This document shows positions 16,025 to 23,017 of a stretch of 43,626 bases of DNA, in pieces. Source of the DNA: Chloroflexota bacterium (GTDB lineage Bacteria; Chloroflexota; Ktedonobacteria; Ktedonobacterales; Ktedonobacteraceae); contig VBHI01000362.1 in NCBI GenBank assembly GCA_005881495.1, positions 1 to 43,626 on the forward strand. Reading direction: 5' to 3'. Below the pieces are notes generated by a model, which was given only the letters and a program-made list of their open reading frames with translations, had not been told where the DNA came from and made no database searches. The position numbers and the translations under genes are program-made. Each line of letters starts with the position of its first letter. Position 1 is the first letter of the stretch.

Positions 16025-17464
16025 TCAAGCATGACAAGCGTAACAACCTCTATAATTCTGCCAACGAAAGCATCCTGCAGGGAGATGCTTCGCTGCGCGT
16101 TGTATTACATCTCTTATACCAAAAACAGTCTCTGCCGCTTCTGGCGCGTATCGCTCAACTATAGCCTCAGTAATGGCATTAGCACGGCAAATTTCACCAA
16201 ACATACTGGCGCTGACGCGCGGGATGCGATGCATTGTTCGCAGATCAAGCTCAATTAAGCCAAAACGCACGCTCCAACCCTCGTTCCATTCAAAGTTGTC
16301 TACCAATGACCAGTGCAGATAACCGCGCACGGGAATACCTTCGCTGATTGCGCGATGAATCATCGCGAGATGCTCCAGGATAGCCCGTGGACGGCGGCTA
16401 TCCTGAGCATCACTAAAACCATTTTCTGTGATATAGAGGGGTTTGTTGCTTCGCGTACGACGATAGATAGCTCTCAGCACCCGGTATATACCCACTGGGT
16501 AGATCTCGCCAAAATTATTTTCCAGGCCAGGATCGTTGCACACGGCCCCCGGTCGAACAAAGCGCCGCCCAAAAAGTTCGGTGGGTTTGGTCGCATCGAA
16601 CTTGACCATATCGCGGGTGTAGTAGTTTACGCCGTGGTAGTCCCTCGTCCCCGCTGCGTGCTCAATAGGCTCGAGCAGTATATTCAACGGGAAGGTAAAA
16701 CGCCCTGTTTCCGCGGCCTGTAATATCACCCAGTTAAAAAAAGTCTCTTGCAGTCCTGCCGCCCCTCGATCTAACGGGGAGAGGTCATTGGCCGCTTCGA
16801 AAAGTCGGTAGTGCAGGCAGTAGCCGATCCGTCCCTCCGGTTGCAGACGGCGAATAGCATAGAAAGACTGCACATGAGCCACTATCATATTGCGCGTAAC
16901 CTGAAATGCGTGCACGATCTGCTGTTCGCCAGGTGGAAATGAACCCAGCACATACCCCCGTGTGGCGTAGACATTTGGTTCGTTCAAAGTAATCCAGAAA
17001 TCACAGAGATCACCCAACGCCCGCACGGCATGTTCCGCATAACGCACAAAGAAGGCAATATTTGTTTCGTTTGCAAATCCGCCGCGGTCGGCAAACCAGA
17101 GAGGCTCGGAAAAATGATGAAGTGTGACTATAGGGGTCATGTGTCTCTGGTGTAGATCGCTCAGCATCGCCCGGTAACGCTCAATCGCCGCGTTGTCCCA
17201 CTGTCCCTCATCAGGCTCTATACGGCTCCATTCCAGGCTTAAACGCAGCGCATTATTCTCCATCTGTTCCGCCAGGTTAAAATCACTCTCTGCATCCTCC
17301 CACCAGTTGTCTGCGCTGGCACACGACTCACCCGTCAATATGTGCCCCTGTTGCTCCCAGCGATACCACTGGCTATTTGTATTACTTCCCTCACATTGGT
17401 ACGATGAAGATGCGGTTCCCCACAAAAACCCATCTGGGAATCGCAGTATACGCTGCTTTGCCAT
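16025..17464 (-). CDS. Glycoside hydrolase family 1 (beta-glucosidase-like)
   Basis: 479 residues. The (beta/alpha)8 retaining glycosidase starts with FPDGFLWGTASSSYQCEG. The acid/base Glu is in WITLNEPN, and the nucleophile Glu in YITENGFSD. The C-terminal WSLVDNFEWNEGWSVRFGL is typical. The enzyme hydrolyses beta-glucosides, beta-galactosides or related; the substrate cannot be read from the sequence. There is no signal peptide. The ATG at 17464 is preferred over 17485 because of CTGGAGAG 6 nt upstream, although the 17485 ATG shares a base with the preceding stop codon (TAATG). It is the last gene of the complex-I-like unit and lies about 20 nt behind it, so co-transcription is likely although the function seems unrelated. 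Confidence 0.93.
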   Translation of the reverse strand: MAKQRILRFPDGFLWGTASSSYQCEGSNTNSQWYRWEQQGHILTGESCASADNWWEDAESDFNLAEQMENNALRLSLEWSRIEPDEGQWDNAAIERYRAMLSDLHQRHMTPIVTLHHFSEPLWFADRGGFANETNIAFFVRYAEHAVRALGDLCDFWITLNEPNVYATRGYVLGSFPPGEQQIVHAFQVTRNMIVAHVQSFYAIRRLQPEGRIGYCLHYRLFEAANDLSPLDRGAAGLQETFFNWVILQAAETGRFTFPLNILLEPIEHAAGTRDYHGVNYYTRDMVKFDATKPTELFGRRFVRPGAVCNDPGLENNFGEIYPVGIYRVLRAIYRRTRSNKPLYITENGFSDAQDSRRPRAILEHLAMIHRAISEGIPVRGYLHWSLVDNFEWNEGWSVRFGLIELDLRTMHRIPRVSASMFGEICRANAITEAIVERYAPEAAETVFGIRDVIQRAAKHLPAGCFRWQNYRGCYACHA

Positions 17465-17484
17465 AGGTCTCTCCAGCATTACCA

Positions 17485-19893
17485 TTATTCACGGATGCCC
17501 CGTGCTGGTAGCGGGCGAACCAGTGGACTCATCACCGGCAAATCTTTCTTCCCACGTGGCAGACGCTGGCGTACCAGGTAATCTGGCGCGTTCGCCAGGT
17601 CTCCCTTCTCCAATGTGATATCGGGACCAAAACGATTGAAGAAAGAAAGCTCGAAGTTTGGCGTCTCGCCCAGTGCTCCGTGAGGGCAAACCTCGACACA
17701 ATCGCCACAGAAGATACAGCGATCCAGGGCGAAGGCGTAGCGCTTCAGGGTGCGCTCAGCCATCATCAACGAGCCGGTTGGACATACCTGGACGCATGCT
17801 CCACAGGAGACACAGTCGGTATCATGCAAGCTGACATTGAATGGCGTCGCCACAATCGTGTCGAACCCTTTCCCAAACATACCATAGCAGTCAGGGCCAA
17901 TGACATCATGACAGACGCGTACACACTGTGTGCAGTTAATGCACTTATTGGGATCGCGCAAGATGAAGCTGTGTGACAGGTCTACATCGTAGTCGTGATA
18001 GTCGCTTGGTTCGCCGTCGTGGAAACGATTATCGGCGAGGCCATGCTCGATACTGTATTTTTGCAGGTCACACTGGCCGGCTGCCGGGCAGGCGCACTGC
18101 AAGCAGCGAGCTGATTCACGCTGCGCCTGTTCCTTCAGATACCCCAGCTCAATGAGCGTGAAATTACGCTTGCGCTCCTCGTAAGGAAGCATCGGCATCT
18201 TGACCTTTGGCTCAACAGGCTTGTAGGGTACGATATCAAACAGGTCTGGTTTGCGCTCTTCCAGTTCCAGGCGGCGAGCAACTTCGTCCATGTCTTCTCC
18301 ATTCAAGAAGGCATGTATAGAACGAGCGCCGAGCTTGCCCTGGGCAACACATTCGATGATCGTCTTCGCGCCCAATTGCGCGTCACCACCGGCAAAGACT
18401 GCATGGCGATCAGTCATGTAGTTGTGTGGATTGGTCTGGATAGTTGTTGATTTCGTCCACTTAACCCCTGATTTCTCATCGAGCACCGACTTATCTGGCT
18501 TCTGGCCGAAGGCAGGGATGATCGTATCACATGAAATGGTAAATTCAGATCCGGGAATAGGTACAGGGCGGCGGCGACCACTGGCATCCGGCTCACCTAA
18601 CTTATTCCTCAGAAATTCAAGACCTGTTACTTTCCCATACTCAGTGAGGACCTTTGTCTGCTGGACATAAAATATCAGTTCTGTGCCCTCGGCCTCTGCG
18701 TCCTCAATCTCTTCCATCGTCGCCGTCATCTCTTTTACTGAACGGCGATAGCAAGTATGAACCTTTGCCCCCAGTCGTAGAGAGGTTCTCGTGCAGTCAA
18801 ACGTGGTAAACCCACCACCTAGCACAACAACCTCGCGTCCCTCCTGGACAGGTACGGATTTACCTTCAACCTTTTCTGCCAGGAACGCGATAGCGTTTAC
18901 CACACCCTCTGCCTCTTCGCCAGGCGCATCGAGCGGGTTACTTGTCCAGGCACCAATCGCCAGATACACGGCATCGAAGCCCTCCGCAAAGAGATCATCG
19001 ATAGTGAAGTCTGTCCCAAGTTTAACGTTACTTTGCAGGTCAACGCCCAGCTGCCAGACATGATCGAGTTCACGGTCCATCACGTCCTTCGGCAAACGGT
19101 ATTCAGGAATACCATAGCGCAACATACCACCGGGTTGTGGCTGCATATCGAATACTTTACAGTAGTGCCCTCTCAATGCCAGGTAATACGCACAGGTGAG
19201 GCCCCCAGGACCAGCACCCACAATAGCAACTTTCTTACCGGTTGGTGGGTCCTTAAGAAAGGGAATGGGTGGATCGAGCAAACAGGTTTCTGCGGCATAC
19301 CCATGCATACGACAGATGGCGATCTCTTCCTCGACCAGCGCGCGGCGGCAGGCCTTCTGACACGGCGCGGGACAGGTCAGGCCAAGGATAAATGGGAAAG
19401 GCAGCACCTCTTTTACCAGGCGCGCAGCCTCTTTCATCGAACCCTTCGCAATGAGTTCCAGGTAGCCAGGAATGTCGATATGCGTCGGGCAATCAACCTG
19501 GCAGGGAGGCTGACAATAGGCGTTGTGGTCAGAGAGCATCATCTCCAGGTTGGTACGCCGGATGTGAAACAATTCGTCAGACTTCGATGTGACGACCATG
19601 CCGGGAGAAGCCGGTGTATTACAAGACGGGAGGGGAAGATCCACACCTTCGATATGCACAAGACACATTCGACAGGCTGATGTCGGCTCCAGCTTTTCGT
19701 CATCACACAGGTTAGGGATATCGTCAATCCCGTTGTCTATTGCCACACTCAGGATCGTCTGGCCTTCGTAGGCCTTGACGGTTTTGCCATCGAGGGTAAA
19801 TGTGAAGCCAGGTTGCCCAACCTCGTTGCGCTCCATCGGCACCGTTGGCGCATGAGCTGTCAGTGAAAAATTGTCTCGGATTGATATTGCCAT
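17485..19893 (-). CDS. 2Fe-2S / GltD-like flavoprotein / ferredoxin fusion oxidoreductase
   Basis: 802 residues; a multi-cofactor NAD(P)H-linked oxidoreductase. Residues 30-95 form a NuoG/HoxU-type [2Fe-2S] domain with C63, C74, C77, C91. A GltD-type linker follows with cysteines 127, 131, 135 and 174, 178, 182 (4Fe-4S pair). The flavoprotein core (about 220-560) has the FAD motif VGAGPGG and a second Rossmann motif VVVLGGGFTT for NAD(P)H, and ends in FAGGDAQLGAKT. After a Cys-rich CLQCACPAAGQC segment come three ferredoxin motifs: CINCTQCVRVC, CVSCGACVQVCP and CIFCGDCVEVCP. The layout resembles GltD-containing NADPH-side subunits (NfnB, glutamate synthase) fused to a complex I arm. It sits downstream of the NuoF-like gene, across a 100-bp gap with a hairpin. 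Confidence 0.88.
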   Translation of the reverse strand: MAISIRDNFSLTAHAPTVPMERNEVGQPGFTFTLDGKTVKAYEGQTILSVAIDNGIDDIPNLCDDEKLEPTSACRMCLVHIEGVDLPLPSCNTPASPGMVVTSKSDELFHIRRTNLEMMLSDHNAYCQPPCQVDCPTHIDIPGYLELIAKGSMKEAARLVKEVLPFPFILGLTCPAPCQKACRRALVEEEIAICRMHGYAAETCLLDPPIPFLKDPPTGKKVAIVGAGPGGLTCAYYLALRGHYCKVFDMQPQPGGMLRYGIPEYRLPKDVMDRELDHVWQLGVDLQSNVKLGTDFTIDDLFAEGFDAVYLAIGAWTSNPLDAPGEEAEGVVNAIAFLAEKVEGKSVPVQEGREVVVLGGGFTTFDCTRTSLRLGAKVHTCYRRSVKEMTATMEEIEDAEAEGTELIFYVQQTKVLTEYGKVTGLEFLRNKLGEPDASGRRRPVPIPGSEFTISCDTIIPAFGQKPDKSVLDEKSGVKWTKSTTIQTNPHNYMTDRHAVFAGGDAQLGAKTIIECVAQGKLGARSIHAFLNGEDMDEVARRLELEERKPDLFDIVPYKPVEPKVKMPMLPYEERKRNFTLIELGYLKEQAQRESARCLQCACPAAGQCDLQKYSIEHGLADNRFHDGEPSDYHDYDVDLSHSFILRDPNKCINCTQCVRVCHDVIGPDCYGMFGKGFDTIVATPFNVSLHDTDCVSCGACVQVCPTGSLMMAERTLKRYAFALDRCIFCGDCVEVCPHGALGETPNFELSFFNRFGPDITLEKGDLANAPDYLVRQRLPRGKKDLPVMSPLVRPLPARGIRE

Positions 19894-19947
19894 GTAGTTC
19901 CTCTTCCGACCTCATTTCATCGCTGCTGACCGTAGGTAGTATAGTAG

Positions 19948-19968
19948 GGTTGACCCTTACGGTCAACC
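19948..19968 (-). promoter_or_regulatory. Intercistronic hairpin within the nuo-like unit
   Basis: GGTTGACC / GGTCAACC with a 5-nt loop, between the NuoF-like and GltD-fusion genes. Minus-strand text around it contains an imperfect tandem motif (GGTGACCGCAAGGG, then GGTTGACCGTAAGGG). There is no T tract. It could process or stabilise the transcript, or attenuate it. Confidence 0.4.
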
Positions 19969-19994
19969 TTCCCTTGCGGTCACCCTGCAAGCAG

Positions 19995-21350
19995 CTACGG
20001 TAAGACGTGTTTCGTTACAAAACGATGAGAGCGCACCGGAATACATGTTCCGGTGGGACACTGTTGCTCTTCAATATGCATGTGGAAGTGATCCGGCCAG
20101 TAGCGTTTAGCTGTCTTCAGCGCATTAGGCGCCTGCACACCAAAGCCACATAGCGAGCCATTCGGGACGTAGCTGGCGAATTCATCCAGTACATTCAGAT
20201 CCCCAGTGACGCCGAGATCACTCACTATTCCTTCAAGAATACCGGCAATACGTTTGACACCTAAGCGACAGGGAACACATTTACCACAGGATTCCTTCGC
20301 CAGATAGCGGCTGCGTTCCATCGCCCACGCGACCATACAGGTATTCGCGGGAAGCAACTCGATCACGCTGGATCCGACAATGGCGCCCGCTTCTTCCAGG
20401 GGATCATAGTCAAAAGGCACGTCAAGTAACGACGTTGGCAGAGCGCCACCTTCGGCACCACCCACCACGATGGCTCGCACTTCTCCATCCGACCGTGTGT
20501 AGCCGGCGTGGTGCAGAATTTCACGGAGAGTCGCGCCAAAAGGCACTTCAATCACTCTTGGCTCGCTGCCGGGGACATCATCGTAGACCGTCAGCACCTT
20601 TGTTCCGCCAGTCGTCTCGCTGCCAACGCTTCTGAAAGCCTCAGCGCCGCTGCGCACAATGAAAGGTACATTTGCCAGCGTTTCAATGCAGTTGATGGCG
20701 GTAGGTTTATCCCACAAACCATATTGCGCGGGATAAGGAGGGCGTTGCTCAGGCATCCCACGACGCCCCTTGATCATAGCGATCTGCACGGTCTCTTCGC
20801 CGCCCATAAAGCCAATATCAACGCCGATCACATTGATGGTGCAGCTGAACTCGGTCCCTAAAATATCGCGTCCCACCAGGTTAGCCTCCAGGGCCTCGTA
20901 CAGCGCTTTCTGCACAGAGGCAACCGCTTCGAGATACATATTACGAGTGAAGAGGTACGCCTCCGTTGCGCCTACCGCGTAGGCAGCAAGCACAATGCCC
21001 TCGATGACCTGGTGTGGATTGCGTTCCAGCAGCGATCGGGCCGCCAGGGCGCGCGGATCGGCATCATATGCATTACAGATAACGTATTTCTGATTATCAT
21101 CCATGTTGCGTACAATACGCCACTTCTCGCCGGTCAGGCGACCCGCACCACCGCAACCACGTAGTTTCGCATCGACGACCTGTTCAATGATCTGATCAGG
21201 TGTTTGTTCGTTAATAGCATGCACTAAAGCAACATAGCCGCCAACGCGACGATATGCGTCAAGTGAACGCACATCAGGCTCACCAGGGCGGCGCAACACT
21301 CTATACGTAGGGGCCCAATTTATTGCGCCCGTAGGTTCAAATTCAGGCAT
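19995..21350 (-). CDS. NuoF/HoxF-like 51-kDa subunit, altered FMN/NADH site
   Basis: 451 residues, length of a NuoF. The [4Fe-4S] N3 ligands are intact: C355, C358 and C361 in ESCGKCVPCRLG and C401 in SLCGFG, with the family's 39-residue spacing. The SLBB region and PPYPAQYGLWDKPTAIN are also family-like. The nucleotide-binding region is unusual: the canonical GRGGAGFPTG loop reads GCGGAGRLTG (residues 65-74), and NADExxPG reads NAYDADPRAL (93-102). The GEET of the NADH site is kept in FMGGEET. It may therefore bind FMN or NADH poorly, or act mainly as an electron wire. It overlaps the upstream hybrid gene by 8 bp and has GAGG 9-10 nt before its ATG. Confidence 0.88.
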   Translation of the reverse strand: MPEFEPTGAINWAPTYRVLRRPGEPDVRSLDAYRRVGGYVALVHAINEQTPDQIIEQVVDAKLRGCGGAGRLTGEKWRIVRNMDDNQKYVICNAYDADPRALAARSLLERNPHQVIEGIVLAAYAVGATEAYLFTRNMYLEAVASVQKALYEALEANLVGRDILGTEFSCTINVIGVDIGFMGGEETVQIAMIKGRRGMPEQRPPYPAQYGLWDKPTAINCIETLANVPFIVRSGAEAFRSVGSETTGGTKVLTVYDDVPGSEPRVIEVPFGATLREILHHAGYTRSDGEVRAIVVGGAEGGALPTSLLDVPFDYDPLEEAGAIVGSSVIELLPANTCMVAWAMERSRYLAKESCGKCVPCRLGVKRIAGILEGIVSDLGVTGDLNVLDEFASYVPNGSLCGFGVQAPNALKTAKRYWPDHFHMHIEEQQCPTGTCIPVRSHRFVTKHVLP

Positions 21351-22083
21351 TTGGCTGCCTCACATGATGAATATTACCCCATACGCCGCGCTTATCGGGT
21401 GCCAACCCACGCTCGGGTTGATCGTCTCGCCTGATACCCCTGGCGGCAGGAGCAGGCTTAAATTTTGGACTCATAGTAGCGATACCAAAGATATCACTCA
21501 GGTCGACGCCGCGTATCTGCACAATGCGTTTCGCCGCCTGCAAGGGTAGATACCCGTACAAATCCATCACGGCATCAAGCAGCGAAGGCAGATCACCAGC
21601 TTCCTGCGGCCACGTCTCCAGCAACTCATCAACCTTGCTGAGATCAAGCTCAGGCTCCAGGTAATCTTTGACAGGCATAGAGACACAGGGCGCTACCGGC
21701 TTGTCATGATACTCTACCGCATATTCCGAGATACGTGGAATATAAAAGCCAGCCTTTGAGGCACCTGTCGCAGCAGTCAGTTTTCGCGAAGTAAACTTTT
21801 CAGCGCCCTCGCGAATGTGCGACTTGAACCAGGGGCGCACTCTCCAGGAGTCCATTGGTTCATATTCAATGGTAATGGCTCGCGGCGGGCAGGCCTTTTC
21901 ACACAACAGGCAGGCTTCACACTTCAAATTGAAATCAGTTTGCAGCCCCTCCTGCCTGGTCAACTGAATCAGGCCGCGGCTGCGCGGCGGCAGCTTTGGT
22001 TTTTCGTAAGGATAGAGCCGAGTCACCTTTGGGCGGAAGAGATGGCTAAACGTCAGGCCCATTCCCTCAAGGATACCACGCAT
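21343..22083 (-). CDS. NuoI-like / NuoE-like hybrid subunit
   Basis: 246 residues. The N-terminal part resembles NuoI, but with only one of the two usual 4Fe-4S motifs: C55, C58, C61, C65 in CEACLLCEKACPPRAIT. The region where the second motif should be has none. Residues about 150-210 (LLETWPQEAGDLPSLLDAVM and DLYGYLPLQAAKRIVQIRGV, then IFGIATM) match the helical N-terminal part of NuoE/HoxE, but the thioredoxin-like [2Fe-2S] domain is missing and the tail is Arg/Pro-rich. This looks like a fused, reduced NuoI+NuoE. It starts 3 nt after nuoB with GAGGTG upstream, and its stop overlaps the NuoF-like start. Confidence 0.75.
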   Translation of the reverse strand: MRGILEGMGLTFSHLFRPKVTRLYPYEKPKLPPRSRGLIQLTRQEGLQTDFNLKCEACLLCEKACPPRAITIEYEPMDSWRVRPWFKSHIREGAEKFTSRKLTAATGASKAGFYIPRISEYAVEYHDKPVAPCVSMPVKDYLEPELDLSKVDELLETWPQEAGDLPSLLDAVMDLYGYLPLQAAKRIVQIRGVDLSDIFGIATMSPKFKPAPAARGIRRDDQPERGLAPDKRGVWGNIHHVRQPNA

Positions 22084-22086
22084 ACG

Positions 22087-22689
22087 CTACACCTCTATTT
22101 CCTTTTCACCGCGCACTTTAAGCCCCTGCTTGGCGATCTTCTCACGCAGTTTGAGGATACCCTCAATCAGTGCTTCGGGACGGGGAGGACAGCCAGGAAC
22201 ATACACATCCACTGGCACAATAGTATCGACCCCCTGGACAGTGTAGTAACTATCGTAAAATTCACCGCCAGAGTTGGCGCACTGGCCCATGCTAATGACC
22301 CACTTTGGGTCCGGCATCTGCTCCCAAAGTAACCGCAGGCGCGGCCCCATCTTGACCGAGACGGTTCCGGCCACAATCATCAGGTCAGCCTGGCGCGGGC
22401 TGGAACGAAAGACCTCCGAACCAAAGCGTGAGAGGTCATAGTGCGCCTGCGCGCTGGCAATCATCTCAATAGCGCAGCAAGCCAGGCCATAGCCCAATGG
22501 CCACACCGACTTTGAGCGCGCCCAGTTCTGCGCCCATTGCAGCATATCCATAAAACTGGTGATTTGAACTGGTAACTCTTGATCTCCTGGAATATATTCA
22601 TGGGGACCAGAAGCCATAACAATTGGTACCGGTTTACGTCGTACACCAGGAACCGACGCTCTCCCATCTCCTGTATTCTCGCTGCTCAT
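22087..22689 (-). CDS. NuoB-like 20-kDa subunit
   Basis: 200 residues. The complex I N2 cluster ligands are all present: adjacent C71-C72 in [12 protein letters not shown]137 in [11 protein letters not shown] and C167 in [31 protein letters not shown] is typical of NuoB. The frame opens 7 codons earlier at a TTG, but that TTG lies at the GGAGGAG Shine-Dalgarno itself, which is correctly placed for the ATG at 22689. It is the first gene of the unit, behind an extended -10 promoter. NuoC and NuoD, its obligate neighbours in complex I, are absent from the window. Confidence 0.92.
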
Positions 22690-22825
22690 AGAATAATAGC
22701 TCCTCCGCAAAGGTTTAGCAGCACCATTGCTCGGTTGATATAATGCAGTCTATTGTAAAGCCTATCTAGCACAAAGTCCAGACAGCACACCAAAGAAAGC
22801 CTTTTTCAGCCTCCTATCATGCCCT

Positions 22826-22831: not shown

Positions 22832-22870
22832 GCATGTACCAACCCGAGGTGCCACAAAATTTTTTATTAG

Positions 22871-22923
22871 TGTGTCGAATGGGCTTGCCCGCAGCGGCGC
22901 TGCAGGCAAGCCCATTCGACACA
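22871..22923. repeat. Long near-perfect inverted repeat in a divergent intergenic region
   Basis: Arms TGTGTCGAATGGGCTTGCC (22871-22889) and its exact complement (22905-22923), continuing inward as GCAGC/GCTGC after one mismatch, with a 3-nt loop. T-rich and A-rich bases flank it on either side. It lies between divergent promoters, where a terminator is not needed. A REP-like or MITE-like palindrome is an alternative. Confidence 0.65.
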
Positions 22924-23017
22924 CAAAAATCTCGCGAGGCACGCTTGCGGGCCGAGGGTTCAAATAGCGGGTATGATATCATAAGAAGAAAACAAAAAGG
23001 AGCAATTACTTATCTTT

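Follow-up and report, generated by a model that had tools for sequence, protein, structure and literature searches.

A four-gene unit of Ktedonobacteria with a GltD fusion and a split NuoI is probably the input arm of a second complex I

Not every complex I takes its electrons from NADH: the NDH-1 of cyanobacteria and chloroplasts is a complex I whose donor is ferredoxin, and it has no GltD subunit. We describe here a four-gene unit in a 43,626-base stretch of DNA from a Ktedonobacteraceae genome of the Chloroflexota (contig VBHI01000362.1 of assembly GCA_005881495.1, positions 1 to 43,626; the whole stretch is called the window below), which like NDH-1 may be part of a complex I that draws its electrons from something else than NADH. 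Two solved systems come close to its longest chain. StnABC from Sporomusa ovata (8OH5/8OH9) has NuoG-N, GltD (flavin adenine dinucleotide [FAD], NADPH) and HydA-like ferredoxin domains in one polypeptide (PMC10482914), and NfnABC (9BOV/9BP5 from Caldicellulosiruptor, 9N5U from Thermococcus) has the same fusion chain; both systems have NuoF-like and NuoE-like partners. Unlike StnABC, which the accessible text of its report presents as a three-subunit bifurcating transhydrogenase without NuoB (PMC10482914), the unit lacks bifurcation domains, carries the second half of NuoI and has its genes in a complex I set. The 14-subunit complex I, for example that of Thermus, is matched by NuoA, B, C, D, H, and J to N in relatives of the unit and by a near-canonical NuoB and NuoD; it differs in that the unit has a reduced NuoE and NuoF, a GltD fusion for NuoG, and NuoI in two pieces. 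The 11- and 12-subunit complexes I without NuoEFG (the Chloroflexus 12-gene set, PMC8004040; Dehalococcoidia-related single cells, PMC5736913) likewise come from Chloroflexota and have an unknown donor, but the accessible parts of those two reports describe neither a GltD fusion nor a split NuoI.

We conclude that the four genes are probably the input arm of a second, complete complex I, the rest of which is encoded at other loci. The conclusion draws on gene content, conservation, co-occurrence, a contiguous operon in relatives, the split NuoI sequence, and an altered NuoF loop. We regard the enzyme as a variant of complex I in which three classical features are changed, namely the NuoE domain, the NuoF loop, and the one-chain NuoI. 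The combination appears to be new: StnABC and NfnABC explain the input chain and complex I explains the rest, and neither has the other's parts. In the accessible text of the open-licence literature, preprints excluded, we found no description of a GltD-type complex I or of a split NuoI. The genes of the unit and their domains are as follows.

22087..22689, minus strand: NuoB-like subunit, 200 amino acids (aa) from ATG, matching the NCBIfam NuoB subfamily
21343..22083, minus strand: I/E hybrid (NuoI first half plus NuoE helical domain), 246 aa
21853..22083, minus strand: NuoI first half (I/E residues 1-77), with one CxxCxxCxxxC motif
21433..21648, minus strand: NuoE/HydC/StnA-like helical domain (I/E residues 146-217), from profile search, AlphaFold2 (AF2), and Foldseek
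19995..21350, minus strand: NuoF-like subunit, 451 aa
17485..19893, minus strand: NuoG-N/GltD/ferredoxin/NuoI second-half fusion, 802 aa
19579..19803, minus strand: NuoG-type [2Fe-2S] domain (fusion residues 31-105), PF13510 at 4e-20
18289..19254, minus strand: GltD-type FAD and NADPH domain (about residues 214-535), with the motif GGGxT...RTSxRxGA...YRR
17767..17961, minus strand: HydA/NuoG-like 2[4Fe-4S] domain (fusion residues 645-709), aligning to 8oh5_C and HydA1
17485..17763, minus strand: NuoI second half (fusion residues 711-802), with one CxxCxxCxxxC motif and a NuoI-type tail

The original prediction, made from the letters of the DNA, had proposed a four-gene unit read in one direction, and this is what we found: all four genes lie on the minus strand, and the NuoB, I/E, and NuoF reading frames overlap or almost abut. 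A scan of genome contigs gave 57 loci, comprising 43 of Ktedonobacteria type by similarity (L001-L043, two of them titled Proteobacteria), two more distant full-length relatives (L044 and L045), and twelve short matches (L046-L057). The order B-I/E-F-GltD, which the original prediction had suggested looking for in Ktedonobacteria, is identical in 41/41 loci with all four genes among the 45 fetched (L001-L045), and the arrangement is therefore not due to chance. In L034 and L039 the contig ends before the fusion; in L005 and L007 NuoB does not adjoin I/E (the L007 contig also ends within NuoF), and these two genomes carry a unit-type NuoB, 79-81% identical, at another place. Among the best 120 matches listed, identity is 79-92% for I/E and 82-100% for the fusion, and the source names are Ktedonobacteraceae, Ktedonobacter, Dictyobacter, Thermogemmatispora, and similar. 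The system has been hidden by annotation, since within the same best 120 the proteins are named mostly "ferredoxin" or "hypothetical protein" and the fusion "glutamate synthase beta subunit-like." Metagenomes gave 728 and 3457 matches for the two kinds of I/E.

Residues 33-736 of the fusion resemble 9bov_A (581.8 bits) and 8oh5_C (530.2 bits), and follow the order NuoG [2Fe-2S] domain, GltD-type 4Fe-4S cluster motifs, FAD and NADPH domains, a CxxCxC motif, and a HydA-like 2[4Fe-4S] pair. The cysteines of all these parts are conserved without exception in the 42 or 43 sequences aligned: C63, C74, C77, and C91 of the NuoG-type domain are present in 42/42 sequences, and those of the HydA/NuoG-like domain, together with C726, C729, C732, and C736 of the NuoI second half, are kept in 43/43. 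In a wider set of 23 sequences most of them persist in 21-23 members; at the position of C194, 14 have Arg. Three CxxCxxCxxxC motifs were counted in 63 of 65 fusion rows, a set in which four loci are counted twice; the frames of L161 and L175 are broken, and reading them gave no motif. After the second Rossmann fold comes a YRR motif, which we take to be of the NADPH type. As NADPH was also seen bound in StnC (PMC10482914), NADPH rather than NADH would be the donor. In Dictyobacter (L011, L013, L018, and L041) the GltD fusion occurs in two or three tandem copies, the later full-length copies having a different N terminus.

In the Protein Data Bank (PDB) most matches to the final 92 residues of the fusion are NuoI/NdhI chains, with the polyferredoxin MvhB second, and in the four NuoI alignments shown for this region the second half is the better domain and comes with the linker and tail. 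Against the TIGR01971 NuoI profile, I/E residues 7-77 score 51.7 bits over profile positions 1-66 of 121, which is under the cut-off of that family, and the fusion end scores 41.8 bits over positions 70-111; the two halves thus abut with no overlap, and when joined they give 101.5 bits in a single stretch from 1 to 111, nearly what the two scores add up to. The N-terminal part of I/E also has PDB matches to the first half of TYKY/NuoI, and its CxxCxxCxxxC motif is the only one in all 65 of 65 rows. Judged by sequence, NuoI is split over two chains, with one motif in I/E and the other ending the fusion. In a 2[4Fe-4S] ferredoxin each cluster is held by three Cys from one motif and one from the other; since the motifs are here on separate chains, both NuoI clusters should bridge two polypeptides. 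Residue C133 of I/E was considered as an additional ligand and dropped, being present in only 28 of 45 sequences.

The later part of I/E is NuoE-like. Residues 147-216 give a weak match to formate dehydrogenase gamma/NuoE, the match to StnA/HydC stops at residue 217, and only the helical domain of NuoE is kept; profile, AF2, and Foldseek searches found no [2Fe-2S] thioredoxin domain of NuoE/StnA in I/E of the window or of Ktedonobacteria. AF2 (44 rows) folds the helical domain well, with ten-residue block means of 75-95, and Foldseek with this model returned 9bov_C as the best hit (template modelling score 0.86 by target, with a weak E value of 1e-3), followed by its kin. The description of this gene as a NuoI/NuoE hybrid was right but incomplete, for of NuoI it has only the first half, and of NuoE only the helical region. 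Some deep members, such as L166 and L173, retain a thioredoxin-like NuoE tail with few cysteines (seen by eye; PF01257 is among the listed matches), which suggests that this domain was lost stepwise.

NuoB scores 234 bits against the NCBIfam NuoB subfamily (cut-off 116), and its best PDB match is Thermus subunit 6, 2fug_6. Its likely start is the ATG at 22689, preceded by GGAGGAG; the longest open reading frame (207 aa) begins at a TTG at 22710. In the numbering of that frame C78, C79, C144, and C174 are invariant in 42/42 aligned sequences, in keeping with the claim that the N2 ligands are retained, and NuoB is expected from its sequence to carry cluster N2.

The NuoF-like subunit scores 339 bits against TIGR01959, below the equivalog cut-off of 559. 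A PDB search placed it closest to StnB/HydB-type chains, and it aligns to residues 106-529 of 584 in 8oh5_B; the N-terminal thioredoxin and C-terminal ferredoxin domains of StnB are absent from its 451 aa. It keeps the N3 cysteines and C338, H425, C431, and C436, which we take to be the putative Zn site of the StnB/HydB branch. The flavin mononucleotide (FMN)/NADH loop reads NAYDAD, versus NCDESE in the ordinary NuoF of the same class. The replaced Asp, presumably an FMN contact as in Thermus, is Tyr in 42/42 sequences of a first, Ktedonobacteria-type set; in a second, wider set of 24, which has five members in common with the first, it is Tyr in 20, Ile in 2, Met in 2, and Asp in none. Because this loop is changed, only the helical domain of NuoE remains, and the fusion offers a GltD FAD/NADPH site, the NADH site of NuoF looks abandoned. 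The GltD part had been proposed as a replacement for part of the role of NuoF, and it stands as the likely new electron entry.

No nuo-like genes other than those of the unit were found in the window by tblastn with reference NuoA-N proteins of both kinds. The absence of NuoC, NuoD, and the membrane subunits therefore holds for the window, but in Ktedonobacteria they are present at two other loci. Fourteen genomes were reached via the loci (12 Ktedonobacteria and those of L044 and L045), and 14/14 carry two or more copies each of NuoD, NuoH, NuoJ, and NuoK and no fewer than six antiporter genes; the second NuoJ of G014 is in pieces across two contigs. In 8/8 Ktedonobacteria 20-kb stretches the second NuoD belongs to an A-C-D-H locus that lacks NuoB, and a second J-K-L-M-N set stands together in 6/6. 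As the second A-C-D-H set has no NuoB, the unit would supply it. An ordinary operon, A-B-C-D-E-F-G-H-I-J-K-L, with its own B, E, F, G, and I, is present in 4/4 relatives examined; this is the second nuo operon whose existence the original prediction had wished to see checked. Ktedonosporobacter rubrisoli has a complete genome (NZ_CP035758, G002), in which the ordinary operon lies at ~7.15 Mb, the unit at 10.05 Mb, the second A-C-small transmembrane protein-D-H set at 8.61 Mb, and the second J-K-L-M-N set at 5.92 Mb; the partner NuoD of this species has none of the CxxC pairs of [NiFe] hydrogenases. Among 30 further unit-bearing genomes, 28 have the second-type NuoD (71-88% identity, one partial), and A, C, D, and H stand in order at 26 of 30 further short loci, with NuoB at none. 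Thermosporothrix hazakensis (L108 and L109) has an extra unit-type NuoB (79%) that adjoins a partner-type NuoD (74%) in L108, and an extra lone NuoD.

The second-set membrane subunits keep the glutamates and lysines of the ordinary ones in pairwise alignments read by eye. In the GWExVGL pattern of NuoL, the Glu is Ala or Gly in the ordinary copies of 4/4 Ktedonobacteria (L099, L101, L104, and L106) and is kept in 5/5 second-complex copies where the pattern was found (L118, L119, L121, L122, and L126; L120 gave no match). Many Ktedonobacteria loci of the second type encode a small, fast-evolving transmembrane protein between NuoC and NuoD (L098, 10293-10616); in L105 NuoC and NuoD are adjacent, and tblastn found no relative of the small protein in L191-L203. 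Directly upstream of the second NuoA are Ser/Thr kinase-like and PP2C phosphatase-like proteins (c2_up644 and c2_up833, by eye), a pair seen in L098, L100, L102, L103, L107, L116, L117, and L210; partial kinase-like matches also occur near the second J-N locus.

Outside the Ktedonobacteria the same genes are contiguous. L044 has A-B-C-D-H-I/E-F-GltD, and L045 has B-D-I/E-F-GltD. Scanning 400 Chloroflexota genomes with the I/E alignment A3 gave 56 above 200 bits and 41 with weaker, full-length matches at 69-101 bits, and from the weaker group eleven loci were fetched. In four of these distant Chloroflexota (L169, L172, L175, and L176) thirteen genes follow in the order A-B-C-D-H-I/E-F-GltD-J-K-L-M-N, with NuoN cut by the edge of the stretch in L172 and L176 and with NuoH and the fusion each in two pieces in L175. 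L168, L170, L171, L173, and L174 show fitting parts of this order within their stretches (L173 and L174 have extra sequence before J, and the NuoL of L174 is patchy), and L166 and L167 are short contigs. A middle group of nine loci (L157-L165) has B-D-I/E-F in all and the fusion in eight; L165 ends in NuoF. The simplest history is that of one ancestral operon, broken into three in Ktedonobacteria.

The partner genes also follow the unit across genomes. In the 400 Chloroflexota, I/E was found in 56 and the partner NuoD in 54; 53 genomes have both, 3 only I/E, 1 only NuoD, and 343 neither (Fisher 2.9e-61, although the genomes are related and so are not independent events). The thresholds, above 200 bits for I/E and at least 430 bits for NuoD, were set after seeing the lists, and the border for NuoD is not sharp, the next being at 417 bits; the 41 genomes with I/E at 69-101 bits were left out, as NuoD identity cannot separate them. 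The usual partner of NuoB, which the original prediction had called absent, appears to be missing only locally; a partner-type NuoD accompanies I/E in 53 of 56 genomes. A second-type NuoL (E value 1e-150) is present in 41/400 genomes, all 41 of which have I/E, and these are 41 of the 46 of Ktedonobacteria type. In the NuoD tree the second NuoD of Ktedonobacteria groups with L044 and the B-D-I/E-F-GltD group (support 100/99), and in the NuoB tree the NuoB of the unit joins the same group (93/88). Identical sequences, stop-containing translations, and the hydrogenase-like L079, L112, L115, and L092 were dropped before the trees were built, as were most Ktedonobacteria rows of the NuoB tree, which kept 46.

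In the mechanism that we propose, the products of the three loci would assemble into one complex. NADPH would pass hydride to the FAD in the GltD part of the fusion, and single electrons would move from there through the 4Fe-4S clusters of the GltD part to the clusters of the NuoG-like part, then along a two-polypeptide NuoI relay (first motif in I/E, second at the fusion end), its clusters presumably ligated between the chains, to N2 in NuoB. Quinone would be reduced at the NuoB/NuoD/NuoH site. NuoA, C, D, and H from the second locus and NuoJ, K, L, M, and N from the third would provide the quinone site and the proton-pumping membrane arm, and NuoF with the NuoE remnant would be kept mainly as a scaffold. 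The predicted outcome is NADPH-driven, proton-pumping quinone reduction. To all of this taken jointly, that is, a pumping complex I whose entry has moved from NADH and FMN in NuoF to NADPH and FAD in GltD, with NuoF as a scaffold, two-chain ligation of NuoI, three unlinked loci in Ktedonobacteria, and the ability to run backwards as an NADP+ reductase driven by the proton motive force, we give an even chance. L044 by itself suggested a small membrane arm made up of just A and H and lacking pumps, a reading that the second J-N sets reject.

The direction of flow bears on the alternative that survives best, in which the second complex I works mainly in reverse, the proton motive force and quinol reducing NADP+ for biosynthesis during CO or H2 oxidation. 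Both oxidations are reported for Ktedonobacteria in the accessible parts of PMC6776052 and PMC13374853. An ordinary complex I is also present in these bacteria, which would leave the second one free to supply NADPH in this way. The remainder of the case is inference, and direction cannot be told from sequence; we treat mainly reverse operation as possible but somewhat unlikely.

Less likely again is a second complex I fed both by NADPH at GltD and by NADH at the FMN of NuoF, or a transhydrogenase between the two pools assisted by the proton motive force. NuoF still has its glycine-rich loop, Lys, Asn, and GGEE(T/S), and no first-set sequence with letters there (41 in all) has a damaged N3, as two electron entries would lead one to expect. 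Yet no sequence of either set keeps the FMN-loop Asp, 10 of 24 in the wider set lack the second N3 Cys, and Ktedonobacteria have lost the NuoE cluster domain. Where the canonical loop GGAGFP has its aromatic Phe, Ktedonobacteria carry Arg or some other residue, though most of the wider set have Phe or Tyr.

The original prediction had favored a soluble NAD(P)H:ferredoxin enzyme that lacks NuoC/D and may bifurcate. One form of it would be a bifurcating or confurcating transhydrogenase of the Stn/NfnABC type (NADPH, NADH, and ferredoxin) with an added NuoB, and it has in its favor that 9bov and 8oh5 (Nfn-ABC and StnABC) are the best solved relatives of both the fusion and NuoF and that the putative Zn-site residues of that branch are retained in NuoF. 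In Stn, electrons continue to FMN in StnB and bifurcate with domains that the unit lacks (PMC10482914): the StnB N-terminal thioredoxin, the StnB C-terminal ferredoxin, and the StnA [2Fe-2S] domains are all absent. According to the accessible text of that report, bifurcation ceased when the StnA cluster was lost, and the putative ferredoxin site is the StnB C terminus. NuoB, moreover, is conserved along with a co-occurring NuoD, and relatives show these genes in linkage with A, C, D, H, and J-N. Because the partners lie at two loci in Ktedonobacteria and directly adjoin these genes in other Chloroflexota, a soluble enzyme is not supported, and we think it improbable. A last idea, taken only from analogy with modular complex I arms, is that the unit serves the cell's ordinary complex I as an interchangeable input arm. 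We consider this highly improbable, for the unit brings a NuoB of its own, the partner NuoD occurs together with it and clusters with it, and the ordinary operon carries its own B, E, F, G, and I.

Several observations weigh against a second complex I with this unit as its input arm. The partner loci are known from relatives and not from the window's own genome. The I/E genomes G173 and G267 have no partner NuoD, G245 has only a contig-end piece (84% identity), and G321 has the partner NuoD without a strong I/E; five of the 46 Ktedonobacteria-type genomes (G118, G165, G267, G294, and G314) have no partner NuoL at an E value of 1e-150. In G005 (Ktedonobacter SOSP1-85) the partner NuoD has an in-frame stop (G005:C1:2382079-2382750). 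Copies of NuoB (G002, G004, G005, and G011) and NuoH (G002, G003, and G010) exist beyond the two sets, in G002 at 2.10 Mb and 9.01 Mb, respectively. In the NuoD tree the deep 13-gene group is attached to the family only weakly (57/46), and in the NuoB tree it falls outside; as the trees do not show it, its common origin rests on the shared gene architecture. The joined NuoI halves, at 101.5 bits, stay below the NCBI curated cut-off of 113.05. AF2 leaves the NuoI half of I/E at low confidence and so neither supports nor refutes ligation between subunits, and its model of the fusion (22 rows) was poor (mean predicted local distance difference test score 59, residues 618-802 below 50) and was not used. 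The conserved NuoF residues named above, with N3, make FMN binding possible in the Ktedonobacteria-type set.

If a second complex I of this kind is present, complex I can switch its donor by placing the entry flavin on a different subunit, and one of its core iron-sulphur proteins can be cut in two with the relay preserved. The enzyme would be a respiratory one that ties the NADPH pool directly to the proton motive force, in soil bacteria that live on trace gases, and a natural test of the modularity of the complex I input arm.

One further gene adjoins the unit.

16025..17485, minus strand: GH1 glycosidase, PF00232 at 274 bits

Its frame touches that of the fusion, and both catalytic motifs, TLNEPN and ITENG, were found by eye. 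Of 19 Ktedonobacteria loci that extend 2 kb or more downstream, 17 have GH1 after the fusion, with 126-2153 bp between the matches; it was not found in L005 or L025, nor in any of 9 deeper loci (0/9). As a neighbor specific to the lineage, it was dropped as a functional partner. Between NuoF and the fusion is a gap of 101 nt that contains a perfect hairpin, GGTTGACCGTAAGGGTCAACC, at 19948-19968, with one copy only in the window. A perfect 20-bp inverted repeat at 22870-22924, also in one copy within the window, lies between NuoB and a divergent HAD gene.

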